Shown here in pieces: positions 38,704-43,134 of a DNA stretch of 64,000 bases. Position 1 is the first letter of the stretch; each line of letters starts with the position of its first letter. A program made the translations under genes and the position numbers. The notes beneath the pieces were generated by a model that worked only from the letters and a program-made list of their open reading frames with translations, made no database searches and was not told the origin of the DNA. Source of the stretch: Chryseobacterium sp. SNU WT5 (GTDB lineage Bacteria; Bacteroidota; Bacteroidia; Flavobacteriales; Weeksellaceae); NCBI RefSeq assembly GCF_007362475.1, contig NZ_CP041687.1:2108001-2172000 (forward strand), read 5' to 3'.

Positions 38704-39522
38704 TTACCAACCTTTTACCGCACCGCCTTTAAATAATTTTTCAACTGCCTTTTCAACGGCTTCCGATTGATACGCTTTCACGAAGTTTTTTACTTTTTCC
38801 GAATCTTTATTGTTTTTTCTTGACACAATTACATTTACATAAGGCGATTGTTTATCTTCTTTCAAAATACCGTATTCCTCAGCGTTTAATCCTGCTTGTG
38901 CCGCAAAATTGTTGTTGATAATGGCAATGGTTACTTGTTTGTCGTCCAGTACTGTTGGCAATTGTGGTGCTTCTATTTCCATAATTTTTAACTGCTTCGG
39001 ATTTTCAAGAATGTCGGTAACTTTCGGTAAAAGCCCAATGCTTTTTTTTAGTTTCAACAAGCCATTTTTTTGCAATAACAATAATGAACGTCCGCCATTG
39101 GTAGGGTCGTTGGGAATGACAATCGTGCTGCCGTTTTGCAGTTCGGAAATGTTTTTAATTTTCTTGGAATACGCCACAATCGGGTAAACAAATGTATTGC
39201 CAACAACCGCTAGTTTGTATCCTCTTTGTTTGGATTGTTCCTCTAAATATGGAACGTGTTGAAAAGCGTTTACATCAATTTCGCCATTGTTCAGGGCTTC
39301 GTTCGGAATTACATAATCGTTGAACACAACCAATTCCACAACTAAGTTGTATTTTTCTTTTGCTTCCTTTTTTGCTGCTTCGGCTATCTGTTGTTCTAAG
39401 CCCGAAGTAATGCCAACTCTGATATAATTCGGGTCGTTTTCTCTTGAATTTCCGCAAGAGTTAAGCAATAGCAAACCTGCAGTAATTACACTTAAAAATC
39501 CTATTTTTTTCATCTGTTTCAT
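38704..39522 (-). CDS. metQ: Methionine ABC transporter substrate-binding lipoprotein
   Basis: A 272-aa NlpA/MetQ-family lipoprotein. The signal ends in a lipobox (GLLLLNSCG near residue 22). The family segments YIRVGITSGLEQQIAEAA, VVFNDYVIPNEALNNGEIDVNAFQH and VIPNDPTNGGRSLLLLQKNGL are clear. It captures D/L-methionine outside the inner membrane and delivers it to MetNI. It is the last gene of the five-gene operon, 14 nt after metI. Confidence 0.92.
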   Translation of the reverse strand: MKQMKKIGFLSVITAGLLLLNSCGNSRENDPNYIRVGITSGLEQQIAEAAKKEAKEKYNLVVELVVFNDYVIPNEALNNGEIDVNAFQHVPYLEEQSKQRGYKLAVVGNTFVYPIVAYSKKIKNISELQNGSTIVIPNDPTNGGRSLLLLQKNGLLKLKKSIGLLPKVTDILENPKQLKIMEIEAPQLPTVLDDKQVTIAIINNNFAAQAGLNAEEYGILKEDKQSPYVNVIVSRKNNKDSEKVKNFVKAYQSEAVEKAVEKLFKGGAVKGW

Positions 39523-39536
39523 CTGTTTTATTTGTT

Positions 39537-40193
39537 TTATCTGTGATTGATTTTTTTTGAAAGTTTATCGCCCGAAAACTGAATAACGAATACCAATGCT
39601 ATCAGCAAAAGTAAAACCGTATTCATAATAAACGGATTGTAACCGACATAACCGTATTGATAACCGATTTGTCCTAATCCGCCTGCACCCACCGCACCGC
39701 CCATTGCGGAATATCCCACTAAGGTGATCAATGTAATGGTTGCATTATTGATAAGTGAAGGTAGCGCTTCGGGAAGCAATACTTTTTTGATGACTTGTAA
39801 TGGACTTGCACCCAGAGCTCTTGCTGTTTCTATTAATCCGTTTGGTACTTCAAGTAAACTGTTTTCTACTAAGCGCGCTATGAACGGTGCTGCACCAATA
39901 CTCAACGGCACAAGTGCCGCGTACACACCAATGGAAGTACCTATCAATGCTCGTGTGAACGGAATGAGCCACACAATTAAAATGATAAAAGGAATGGAAC
40001 GAAACACATTTACAAAAACTGATAAAATGCGGTTATAAAAACGGTTTTCTAGCAGTTGGTCTTTTTGGGTAAGAAACAAAATTATCCCTAAAGGAAGTCC
40101 AATTACAAACCCGAAAAAGCCCGATGTTAAAGTCATAAAAACAGTTTCCCAAAGTCCTTTAAGCAATAATGAAATAGTAGTTTGATCAAGCAT
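39537..40193 (-). CDS. metI: Methionine ABC transporter permease
   Basis: A 218-aa permease with about five membrane helices and the inner-membrane EAA loop IETARALGASPLQVIKKVLLPEALPSLI that docks on MetN. It forms the membrane channel of methionine import. It overlaps the metN 3' end by 8 nt, showing translational coupling. Confidence 0.93.
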   Translation of the reverse strand: MLDQTTISLLLKGLWETVFMTLTSGFFGFVIGLPLGIILFLTQKDQLLENRFYNRILSVFVNVFRSIPFIILIVWLIPFTRALIGTSIGVYAALVPLSIGAAPFIARLVENSLLEVPNGLIETARALGASPLQVIKKVLLPEALPSLINNATITLITLVGYSAMGGAVGAGGLGQIGYQYGYVGYNPFIMNTVLLLLIALVFVIQFSGDKLSKKINHR

Positions 40194-41214
40194 AGCCTCT
40201 TATGGTATTTTGAATGTTGTTTTGATTGAAATACTGAATGGCTTGTGTATTTTCTTCTAAACTCCCTTGCAGATGAAGCAATAATTTCCCAAAACTTGCT
40301 TTACTTAAATATTCTACATCTGCCGTTATGATTTTGTACGGAATGCTGTAATCGCTATAAAGTACCGATAGTAATTTCTCAAACGGAATGTTGCCATTCA
40401 GCTCTATTTCCAGCAAAGGAAATAATCCTGCTGCTGGTTGTTGCTGTAACTTACTGCTTAATGATTGTGGTAGATTCATTGTTTTTGAAATAGTAAATTG
40501 TTTAATAATCGGATGTTCTTTATCATAAATAATATCTTCCAACGTTCCTTTTGCAATCAGTTTTCCTTTGTCTATTACGGCAACGTGGTTGCAGATTGCT
40601 TTTATTACGTCCATTTCGTGGGTAATAAGCAAAATTGTAATGCCTAACCGTTGGTTGATGTCTTTCAACAGCTGTAAAATAGAATGCGTTGTGGCAGGGT
40701 CAAGGGCACTTGTGGCTTCATCACACAACAACAGATAAGGGTCATTTGCCAAAGATCTTGCAATGGCTACTCGTTGTTTTTGTCCTCCTGAAAGACTTTT
40801 TGGATAGCTGTTTACTTTGTCTTCCAGCCCTACAATTTTCAAAAGTTCATTTACTTTTTTGCTGATTTCTGTTTTGCTTGCATTATCCAATTCCAATGGT
40901 AAAGCCACATTGTCAAAAACGGTTCTTGATGAAAGTAGATTGAAATGTTGGAAAATCATTCCTATTTTTTTTCGCTCTTTCGACAATTCCCTATTGCTTA
41001 ATTTCGTTAAATCTTTTCCGTTTATAATAACCTGTCCGCTATCAGGTCGTTCAAGTAGGTTGAGGCATCTAATTAAAGTACTTTTTCCTGCTCCCGAACT
41101 TCCTATTATTCCGACAATATCACCTTGTTCGGCTGTCAGATTTACACTATCAAGTGCCTTGAAATGCTGCTGTTTTTGGCGAAATATTTTCGAAATATTT
41201 TTAATGACTATCAT
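40186..41214 (-). CDS. metN: Methionine ABC transporter ATPase (with NIL domain)
   Basis: A 342-aa protein. It has the Walker A GSSGAGKS at residues 38-45, signature LSGGQKQR and Walker B LLLCDEATS. The C-terminal about 90 residues (FPLLEIELNGNIPFEKLLSVL) form the NIL domain that binds methionine and causes transinhibition. It powers uptake by MetI/MetQ. It overlaps the upstream DUF4395 gene by 4 nt, so the whole set is one coupled operon. Confidence 0.95.
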   Translation of the reverse strand: MIVIKNISKIFRQKQQHFKALDSVNLTAEQGDIVGIIGSSGAGKSTLIRCLNLLERPDSGQVIINGKDLTKLSNRELSKERKKIGMIFQHFNLLSSRTVFDNVALPLELDNASKTEISKKVNELLKIVGLEDKVNSYPKSLSGGQKQRVAIARSLANDPYLLLCDEATSALDPATTHSILQLLKDINQRLGITILLITHEMDVIKAICNHVAVIDKGKLIAKGTLEDIIYDKEHPIIKQFTISKTMNLPQSLSSKLQQQPAAGLFPLLEIELNGNIPFEKLLSVLYSDYSIPYKIITADVEYLSKASFGKLLLHLQGSLEENTQAIQYFNQNNIQNTIRGYA

Positions 41215-41666
41215 AGATTTTTAGTTTTAGCGTTTTGTTTACCTGCTATCGGTGCCAGCAACCAATTATATACATAACATCCAACACAGATTTTAAAAAC
41301 CGCTTCCAAAAGGGCAAAAAGAATCAATGTGACGCTTACTATATATGCCACTTTTGTAAGGTTCAGCAACAACAAAACTGTAATTGAAAGCGAAAACACA
41401 AAGCCTACTGCTGCCGCAAATTTTTTAGGTGCTGCAAAAATGGGTTTGGGTTTTAGCCTAAAAAGATTAACCACTAATTTAGCAACAAATGTCAATGGCG
41501 AAGGCAGAAAAGTAAATGCACGAATGGCAAAATCTGCCGTTAAAATAAATATCAAAAACGTGCTAATGTTGAAAAACACCAAAAGCAAAATAGTGATTAC
41601 TTGAAATGCTATCAGCCGGGTAACGTTTTCGTCTGTTTGGTATTTTGAAATGTCTTTTTTGGTCAT
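41211..41666 (-). CDS. DUF4395 membrane protein
   Basis: A 151-aa integral membrane protein with about four helices and the family-like start DENVTRLIAFQV. FILTADFAIRAFTFLPSPL and a C-terminal CVGCYVY pair follow. DUF4395 has no settled function, though members often accompany sulfur-related genes. The ATG at 41666 is preferred because it starts after the upstream gene's stop. A longer form from 41711 would overlap that gene by 32 nt. It is coupled to metN by a 4-nt overlap. Confidence 0.75.
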   Translation of the reverse strand: MTKKDISKYQTDENVTRLIAFQVITILLLVFFNISTFLIFILTADFAIRAFTFLPSPLTFVAKLVVNLFRLKPKPIFAAPKKFAAAVGFVFSLSITVLLLLNLTKVAYIVSVTLILFALLEAVFKICVGCYVYNWLLAPIAGKQNAKTKNL

Positions 41667-41679
41667 ACTAATTGAAATT

Positions 41680-42687
41680 TTAAAGTGAACTATATTTATA
41701 GGGTTGGCCAATACTTACCAAAACCCTGACGTTTCTTCTAATCTGTACTTTTTTGCGATTAGACAGTTTGAAATAAGTGGTTACGTTAGTGAGCAACACA
41801 CCAAACAAAATGATAAACAAACCAATCAACTGATTGCCGTTGATCACTTCGTTTGAAATAAACCAACCTGCAATAACTGCAACAATAGGATTGATGTAAG
41901 TATGTGTGCTTACCAAAGCAGCGTCTTTTACGGAAAGCAACCATATATAAGAAATGTAAGCGACAAGTGAGCCGAAGAAAATCAAAAACAACAAACCTAA
42001 CCAAGCGGAAGTAGGAACGGTTGTAAAAGAAAATTCGCTCCATTCGCCTCTGAACAGCGCAATCAAAAACGAAGCAATTCCTGCCGTAATAAGCTGTTGA
42101 GCAATATTCATAAAGTTAGAATGACTTGCAGCGTTGTTTTTAGAGTATAGTGAACCCAAAACCCACGCAACGGAACTCAATCCTAAAACCACAAAAGCAA
42201 CAATCTTGATAGATGAAGATGCGGTATGATGGCTGTTGTTGCCCGAAATACTTCCACCCAAAAACAAAATCAATCCTACAAACCCGATAATAAGACCTAT
42301 CGGTATCCATTTGTCGGAAAAATATTTTTTCCAGTTTTTTTTATCAATAGCGATAAACCAAATAGGTCCTGTTGCTAAGACAATGGCAGCTTCGGGAGCG
42401 GTTACATACTGTTCGGCCCAACCGACAAGTCCTGTTCCGCTTGTGAGAATGAGTATTCCTGTAATGGCATTTTTTCGCCAATTTACAAGAGAATCGGCTT
42501 TTTCGCCTTTTGTTCGCAAGTATCCGATCAGCAGTAAACCTGCAGCAAGAAATCGTAAACCCGAAAGAATGAAAGGCGGAAAGCCACTTAAACCAAATGA
42601 AATGGCTATAAATGTCAAGCCCCAAATGATGTATATGTTGGCGAATGCCACAGGCACAAACCAATTTTTGTTTTTATTTTTACTCAT
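41680..42687 (-). CDS. EamA/DMT-family transporter
   Basis: A 335-aa protein with ten predicted membrane helices in two EamA repeats (IYIIWGLTFIAISFGLSGFPPFILSGLRF in the first, INPIVAVIAGWFISNEVINGNQLIGLFIILFGVLLTN-type in the second). Members export amino acids and metabolites. Being first in a methionine-regulated operon, it may export or import a sulfur metabolite, which is an inference. It lies directly after two leader peptide/terminator modules. Confidence 0.85.
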   Translation of the reverse strand: MSKNKNKNWFVPVAFANIYIIWGLTFIAISFGLSGFPPFILSGLRFLAAGLLLIGYLRTKGEKADSLVNWRKNAITGILILTSGTGLVGWAEQYVTAPEAAIVLATGPIWFIAIDKKNWKKYFSDKWIPIGLIIGFVGLILFLGGSISGNNSHHTASSSIKIVAFVVLGLSSVAWVLGSLYSKNNAASHSNFMNIAQQLITAGIASFLIALFRGEWSEFSFTTVPTSAWLGLLFLIFFGSLVAYISYIWLLSVKDAALVSTHTYINPIVAVIAGWFISNEVINGNQLIGLFIILFGVLLTNVTTYFKLSNRKKVQIRRNVRVLVSIGQPYKYSSL

Positions 42688-42730
42688 TGTTTTATTTTTT
42701 TAATTGTTATTACTATTGTTGTGAAAATAA

Positions 42731-42762
42731 AAAAGGCGTTACGATGTGTCGTAACGCCTTTT
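42731..42762 (-). terminator. Attenuator terminator 2 (before the methionine operon)
   Basis: A perfect 14-bp stem, AAAAGGCGTTACGA/TCGTAACGCCTTTT with a 4-nt loop, followed on the minus strand by T residues. It lies between leader peptide 2 and the first structural gene, the place expected for transcription attenuation. Confidence 0.85.
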
Positions 42763-42783
42763 ATAAAAGATTTAAATTAAGGT

Positions 42784-42840
42784 TTATATACGACAACACC
42801 GTTGCATTTTCATACGGTAGCACATCATCATTTTATTCAT
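42784..42840 (-). CDS. Leader peptide 2, Met/Cys-rich (18 aa)
   Basis: The minus-strand frame encodes MNKMMMCYRMKMQRCCRI and then stops. Six of the 18 residues are Met and three are Cys. A hairpin terminator follows 21 nt after the stop. It fits a ribosome-mediated attenuator: stalling on scarce methionine or cysteine codons would alter RNA folding and allow read-through into the transporter genes. The peptide is recognised by composition and position, not by homology. Confidence 0.75.
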   Translation of the reverse strand: MNKMMMCYRMKMQRCCRI

Positions 42841-42905
42841 ATCCTTACTATTCTTCATTGTCTTATTTTTTACTTCTGTTTGCATTTTTAAACTGTTTTA
42901 AACAA

Positions 42906-42938
42906 AAAAAATCCACCGAGTTGTATCGGTGGATTTTT
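42906..42938 (-). terminator. Attenuator terminator 1
   Basis: The stem AAAAATCCACCGA/TCGGTGGATTTTT is followed by a T run on the minus strand. It lies 28 nt after the stop of leader peptide 1 and upstream of leader peptide 2. Confidence 0.85.
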
Positions 42939-42966
42939 CAAATTATTTTATTTAATCTCTTTGATT

Positions 42967-43065
42967 TTACCCAATACAACCTACATCTGACGACATACAC
43001 TTACAGTAAGACATCATCTTTGAAGTCTTGTTTATGTTGCTGTATTTGATAAAATTACTGTTCAT
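42967..43065 (-). CDS. Leader peptide 1, Met/Cys-containing (32 aa)
   Basis: The minus-strand frame from ATG 43065 encodes a 32-residue peptide with a central KMMSYCKCMSSD cluster and a later Cys before the stop (DVGCIG). It is the first frame after a full promoter and is followed by a terminator. With leader 2 it gives two attenuator modules in series. No homologue is claimed. Confidence 0.7.
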   Translation of the reverse strand: MNSNFIKYSNINKTSKMMSYCKCMSSDVGCIG

Positions 43066-43105
43066 ATTTTTCTTAATTCAGTTCTTGTTGTTTGATACAA
43101 GGGTG

Positions 43106-43134
43106 CAAATATAGCACTTATTTTTATTACGCAA
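43106..43134 (-). promoter_or_regulatory. Bacteroidetes promoter of the methionine operon
   Basis: On the minus strand TTG (43134-43132), an 18-nt spacer and TATATTTG (43113-43106) match the consensus fully. Transcription would begin near 43099, about 35 nt before leader peptide 1. The promoter is inside the cassette, so the unit is self-sufficient. Confidence 0.8.

Follow-up and report, generated by a model that had tools for sequence, protein, structure and literature searches.

Two candidate ribosome-mediated attenuators in series upstream of a methionine-import operon in Chryseobacterium sp. SNU WT5

How does Chryseobacterium sp. SNU WT5 control methionine import? Methionine control in bacteria has been described through S-adenosylmethionine (SAM) riboswitches, T-boxes and MetJ. 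The 64,000-nucleotide (nt) stretch of this genome analyzed here (contig NZ_CP041687.1, positions 2,108,001 to 2,172,000; hereafter the window) carries a methionine-import operon on its minus strand, preceded by two short reading frames rich in methionine and cysteine codons, each followed by a hairpin terminator. According to an initial annotation, charged tRNA-Met or tRNA-Cys might be sensed here by ribosome-mediated attenuators in tandem. Our analysis supports this proposal: the coupling of leaders to terminators, coding constraint on the frames, conservation of the tandem and the presence of antiterminators make it very probable, on sequence grounds, that the operon is governed by two successive transcription attenuators of the ribosome-mediated kind. 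Read from 43134 to 42687, the order is promoter, leader 1, terminator 1, leader 2, terminator 2 and then the genes EamA-DUF4395-metN-metI-metQ, with these predicted control elements:

43106 to 43134, minus strand: promoter of the Bacteroidota type, read from the sequence (TTG at 43134-43132, an 18-nt spacer, and TATATTTG at 43113-43106)
42967 to 43065, minus strand: leader peptide 1, 32 codons, MNSNFIKYSNINKTSKMMSYCKCMSSDVGCIG, control codons M17, M18, C21, C23 and M24
42971 to 42980, minus strand: antiterminator strand 1, GUUGUAUUGG, within the final codons of leader 1
42906 to 42939, minus strand: intrinsic terminator 1, -17.3 kcal/mol, z -6.9
42784 to 42885, minus strand: leader peptide 2, 33 codons, MQTEVKNKTMKNSKDMNKMMMCYRMKMQRCCRI, control codons M19, M20, M21, C22, M25 and M27
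42789 to 42795, minus strand: antiterminator strand 2, UGUCGUA, aided by CCUU right behind the stop codon
42731 to 42762, minus strand: intrinsic terminator 2, -19.3 kcal/mol, z -7.5

All elements of the full promoter claimed by the initial annotation were in place at 43134-43106, its 32-residue frame with KMMSYCKCM was present at 43065-42967, and both of its hairpins folded where it had put them. The TAnnTTTG box was found again 5' of the leaders of relatives. The second frame had been described as 18 residues long; the frame and its Met/Cys cluster are real, but those 18 residues are the 3' part of a 33-codon frame. The start at 42885 is most likely the correct one, rather than the internal ATG that gives 18 residues, because the leaders of relatives are 29-36 residues long and because of the ATG contexts. 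Among the 520 short open reading frames (ORFs; 15-60 residues) of the window, none exceeded leader 2 in Met+Cys count or density, and leader 1 came second by best local Met/Cys cluster, these clusters filling 6 of 9 residues in leader 2 and 5 of 9 in leader 1. The best cluster in 20 Markov-simulated 64-kb windows was 4 or 5 and never 6, the value of leader 2; the initial annotation had called the Met/Cys richness of the second frame far above chance. Leaders 1 and 2 matched a leader profile at E 1.6e-8 and 1.5e-8, each being itself a row of that profile. Conservation is stronger evidence for the leaders than these chance statistics.

We compared 106 distinct metNIQ upstream regions from Chryseobacterium, Flavobacterium, the Epilithonimonas type, Elizabethkingia and Pedobacter. 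Leader and terminator were both present in 84 regions and both missing from 19, and no region had a leader without a terminator. In the remaining three a terminator was present but no leader was flagged; two of these belong to the Epilithonimonas type in its short form (FVCCIRFI or FVYCIRFI), and the third is from Chishuiella. Four kinds of leader stood 5' of metN (or eamA): MMMYCCMP in Chryseobacterium, MMCCxxVM in Flavobacterium, Cys-Cys in the Epilithonimonas type and MCYQMAMP in Elizabethkingia. The distance from leader stop codon to terminator was 17-41 nt in all 83 leaders listed. The initial annotation had held that leaders absent from homologous operons, or frameshifted in them, would speak against attenuation; the leaders proved to be missing where the terminator was missing as well.

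Frameshifts could be assessed in Pedobacter montanisoli, which belongs to another order and carries both leader-terminator units in the order seen in the window. The two leader regions aligned across the entire 410 nt (score 356 versus 176 ± 9 for shuffled sequences), and almost all indels inside the frames were of 3 nt. In leader 1, KTSKMMSYCKCM...CIG aligned with KTSKMMAYCCMMM...CIG, and in leader 2 NKMMMCYRM aligned with NKMMMCRYM. This alignment over the whole region, together with the matching leaders, argues that the tandem has been kept as a unit. Within the window the DNA of unit 1 bears only a weak likeness to that of unit 2 (score 59 versus 45 ± 6), so that the units may possibly have arisen by duplication.

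The coding nature of the frames was examined in 54 codon-aligned Chryseobacterium leaders. M19, C23 and M24 were unchanged in all 54, P25 in 53 and M18 in 51, and the ratio of nonsynonymous to synonymous polymorphism (pN/pS) was 0.61 in frame versus 0.95-1.03 in the other frames. This constraint, together with a conserved start and length, is what would be expected of a short translatable ORF, and Met and Cys codons clustered before a methionine importer appear to fit the metabolite of the operon. The Pro codon CCU that follows Cys-Met is nearly invariant down to its third base (alignment columns 16-24, TGTATGCCT), possibly reflecting RNA pairing in a protector stem or a Pro that slows translation.

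Alternative antiterminator pairing, which the initial annotation had suggested looking for, was found in both units. In unit 1, GUUGUAUUGG pairs with CCGAUACAAC (42929-42920), the 5' arm and loop of terminator 1, through 10 contiguous pairs (-13.3 kcal/mol, shuffle p 0.02). In unit 2, UGUCGUA pairs with UACGACA (42753-42747) and CCUU with AAGG, giving -11.2 kcal/mol. When leader tails and terminators were swapped in a matrix, each tail's pairing with its own terminator was the best in 5 of 5 groups (for unit 1, -13.1 versus -6.1 to -8.0), which makes the antiterminator specific to its clade. Across 56 Chryseobacterium sequences the antiterminator GUGGU..CCUU x AAGG..ACCAC was paired in 91% of cells, versus 35-61% when slid, and two Chryseobacterium sequences show a compensatory change, with GGAGU/ACUCC in place of GUGGU/ACCAC; for the Chryseobacterium terminator, pairing held in 99% of cells and double changes numbered 16. 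Folded by RNAalifold without the 3' arm of the terminator, the consensus gave the antiterminator; with that arm included, it gave the terminator. In the window units and the relatives examined, 15-43 nt separate the main Met/Cys control codons from the antiterminator that follows them. Assuming the established ribosome footprint of ~13 nt downstream of the A-site codon, this spacing would let a stalled ribosome free the antiterminator and a ribosome at the stop codon cover it. The predicted intrinsic terminator before the first structural gene, and an antiterminator that would exclude it and begins in the final leader codons, likewise have the character of an attenuator. The protector (1:2) hairpin of the Chryseobacterium consensus is a weak UG-GCC/GGU-CA pairing of about -5 kcal/mol.

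These features suggest the following model. RNA polymerase would make leader 1 while a ribosome translates it. With Met-tRNA and Cys-tRNA plentiful, the ribosome would reach the stop codon and cover the final leader codons, so that the hairpin forms and transcription terminates. If either charged tRNA were scarce, the ribosome would stall on the Met/Cys codons upstream, leaving the final leader codons exposed. These would base-pair with the terminator's 5' arm and loop while its 3' arm had yet to be transcribed, and polymerase would read through. Unit 2 would repeat the test before the structural genes, and since both must be passed the two units would act as a serial AND gate that should lower the basal level. 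Failed initiation would also give read-through because the protector hairpin appears weak, a sensible outcome for a methionine sensor. We infer that translation of the frames, stalling and termination take place in vivo, and we favor both Met and Cys as the tRNA charges sensed.

Three other accounts of the same elements were weighed against this model. The same attenuator might sense cysteine only, with the Met codons incidental: Cys-Cys or Cys occurs in every leader group, Epilithonimonas-type leaders (e.g. MIMLRFVCCIRFI) have Cys-Cys and few Met, and mycobacterial poly-Cys leaders and the CysS upstream ORF (uORF) motif are precedents. However, Met outnumbers Cys among the control residues of Chryseobacterium, Flavobacterium and the window, two of the Met positions are invariant (M19 and M24), and the cargo is a methionine importer, so a cysteine-only sensor seems unlikely to us. 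We give about half that weight, and hence little, to nascent-chain sensing, in which the Met/Cys peptide within the ribosome would bind Cu(I) or a thiol/redox signal and its arrest or release would govern the terminator. The order and spacing of Met and Cys vary by group (MMMYCCMP, MMCCxxVM, VCC, KMMSYCKCM) at constant codon content and the cargo fits tRNA sensing, although the clusters do look like Cu(I)-binding motifs; C23-M24-P25, which keeps fixed positions, Pro included, in 53 of the 54 Chryseobacterium leaders, also speaks for it, but the conserved CCU codon may reflect RNA pairing instead. Least credible of all is that the frames are small functional proteins or spurious and the hairpins ordinary terminators of a short RNA, with no attenuation. 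Intrinsic terminators are common, yet the tight association of leader and terminator, the antiterminators, the positional constraint and a peptide that varies freely outside its core are hard to reconcile with that account.

Several points weigh against the attenuation model itself. Methionine scarcity would also hamper initiation on the leader. The antiterminators are less stable than the terminators they would have to prevent, which means that only a kinetic switch could work. The antiterminator of unit 2 is the weaker one (shuffle p 0.10 in the window and 0.42 in P. montanisoli, locus L106), and in Chryseobacterium the final pair of the antiterminator stem is formed in just 27 of 56 sequences, with few compensatory changes. 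Because 19 of the 106 metNIQ regions carry neither part, the device is not essential to metNIQ. The 84 regions that carry both are also not 84 independent events, as they fall into about five leader groups. In Chishuiella (L176) a terminator stands 5' of metN with no Met/Cys leader.

A SAM riboswitch or other Rfam family before the operon was rejected: no Rfam family, SAM riboswitch and T-box included, matched at gathering level in the region 5' of metNIQ in the window or in 14 related loci. SAM riboswitch control of methionine appears to hold in this very genome for other genes. Two SAM-I riboswitches were found (G000:C1:967742-967845 and 602642-602747), neither of them before metNIQ. From our reading of the translated ORFs, one precedes metX-like, fused homoserine dehydrogenase and metH-like genes and the other a metY-like gene (O-acetylhomoserine sulfhydrylase). 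Since SAM-I stands at biosynthesis genes and not at metNIQ, methionine synthesis appears to be SAM-controlled and import to be under another sensor in the same genome.

A wider regulon using the same leader was also rejected. A profile of 16 leaders run against 12 genomes matched at metNIQ sites only, in a search that did not include a genome-wide scan for unrelated Met/Cys leaders; weaker matches were out of frame within genes or lacked the leader layout. A phylum-wide scan matched 7 of 395 genomes, those being the window's own and members of one genus, and the profile therefore reaches only Chryseobacterium-type leaders. When the leader region was compared by BLASTN with 197 genomes of the family, most matches were chance AT-rich ones, and a six-His-codon pattern, used to look for His leaders elsewhere in the lineage as a sign of attenuation, gave chance matches only. 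Separately, a 21-bp palindrome, AGTCTA-N9-TAGACT, overlaps the promoter -33 region in many metNIQ operons with or without a leader, for example in the Chryseobacterium and Pedobacter loci L081, L112, L163 and L168; it is not evident in the window, and some Flavobacterium have a related palindrome, AACCTA...TAGGTT. The 21-bp element resembles an operator to which a repressor or activator may bind.

Pfam and NCBIfam matches agreed with the initial annotation for all five genes of the operon:

41680 to 42687, minus strand: EamA-family transporter, operon gene 1 (PF00892)
41211 to 41711, minus strand: DUF4395 membrane protein (PF14340)
40186 to 41214, minus strand: metN, methionine ABC transporter ATPase with NIL domain (TIGR02314, below the curated cut-off, and PF09383)
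39537 to 40193, minus strand: metI, methionine ABC transporter permease (NF008049)
38704 to 39522, minus strand: metQ, methionine-binding lipoprotein (NF008285, PF03180)

Many Chryseobacterium likewise have an EamA gene separating the leader from metN; the DUF4395 gene between EamA and metN was seen in the window only and not in 80 related loci. The operon was probably acquired horizontally. Of the 296 genomes of the order, 44 have MetQ (PF03180), and among the six genomes of its genus listed there the window's genome alone has it. Nothing close to the window's MetN turned up in 35 congeners, where identity reached 40-45% at best, the level of general ABC ATPases, and the nearest named MetI, at 87%, is from Elizabethkingia occulta. 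A search for plasmid or viral spread of the locus gave no match. Six group II intron D1-D4 copies, five with identical scores, lie around the operon on the plus strand (21798-51375), one of them immediately upstream of it (from 43573) and another on its downstream side (from 36596).

The proposed device follows the classical attenuator model of a race between ribosome and polymerase (PMC1183508). Like the trp, his, thr, ilv and pheST leaders, it consists of a short ORF whose control codons specify the amino acid that the operon serves, an antiterminator drawn from the final codons and an intrinsic terminator; unlike them, it combines Met and Cys control, occurs in Bacteroidota, has two full serial units and has a protector (1:2) that appears weak or absent. 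The uORFC-8-2 motif before cysS, which carries a tandem pair of Cys codons as well as an intrinsic terminator, is a proposed ribosome-mediated attenuator (PMC8632094), but it controls a synthetase, has no Met codons and is a single unit with a different RNA motif. Cysteine-responsive poly-Cys leaders precede sulfur genes in Actinobacteria with no conserved terminator hairpin (PMC1262725; cysteine-responsive leaders are also the subject of Canestrari 2020 as cited in PMC9094748), whereas the window has an intrinsic terminator, an antiterminator and Met codons. In the Salmonella mgtCBR leader there are two short ORFs, each with its attenuator, and one of these reads Pro codons (PMC3641672); its units sense different signals, whereas both units of the window share one Met/Cys code. 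SAM-I (the S-box) likewise attenuates sulfur-amino-acid genes, sensing SAM rather than charged tRNA. In the literature searched, which left subscription journals mostly uncovered so that novelty is provisional, we came across no attenuator with a Met leader peptide, nor any from Bacteroidota. Control by a stalled leader ribosome is known for other amino acids and is apparently undescribed for methionine or this phylum. Candidate Bacteroidetes attenuators for other amino acids may appear in comparative studies of the early 2000s.

An attenuator that reads Met codons is peculiar in that Met also starts every leader, and lack of Met would slow initiation too; with little protector hairpin, stalling and failed initiation would both point to read-through. 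Such a device implies close coupling of ribosome and RNA polymerase in Bacteroidota, on which no paper was found in the literature searched. It is reasonably likely that these leaders belong to a Bacteroidota attenuator family that reads charged Met-tRNA together with Cys-tRNA and has spread with metNIQ in Flavobacteriia and Sphingobacteriia, sometimes as a serial two-gate version and beside SAM-I, with import governed by charged tRNA and biosynthesis by SAM. One genome would then divide SAM sensing for synthesis from tRNA sensing for import, a split that is directly testable.
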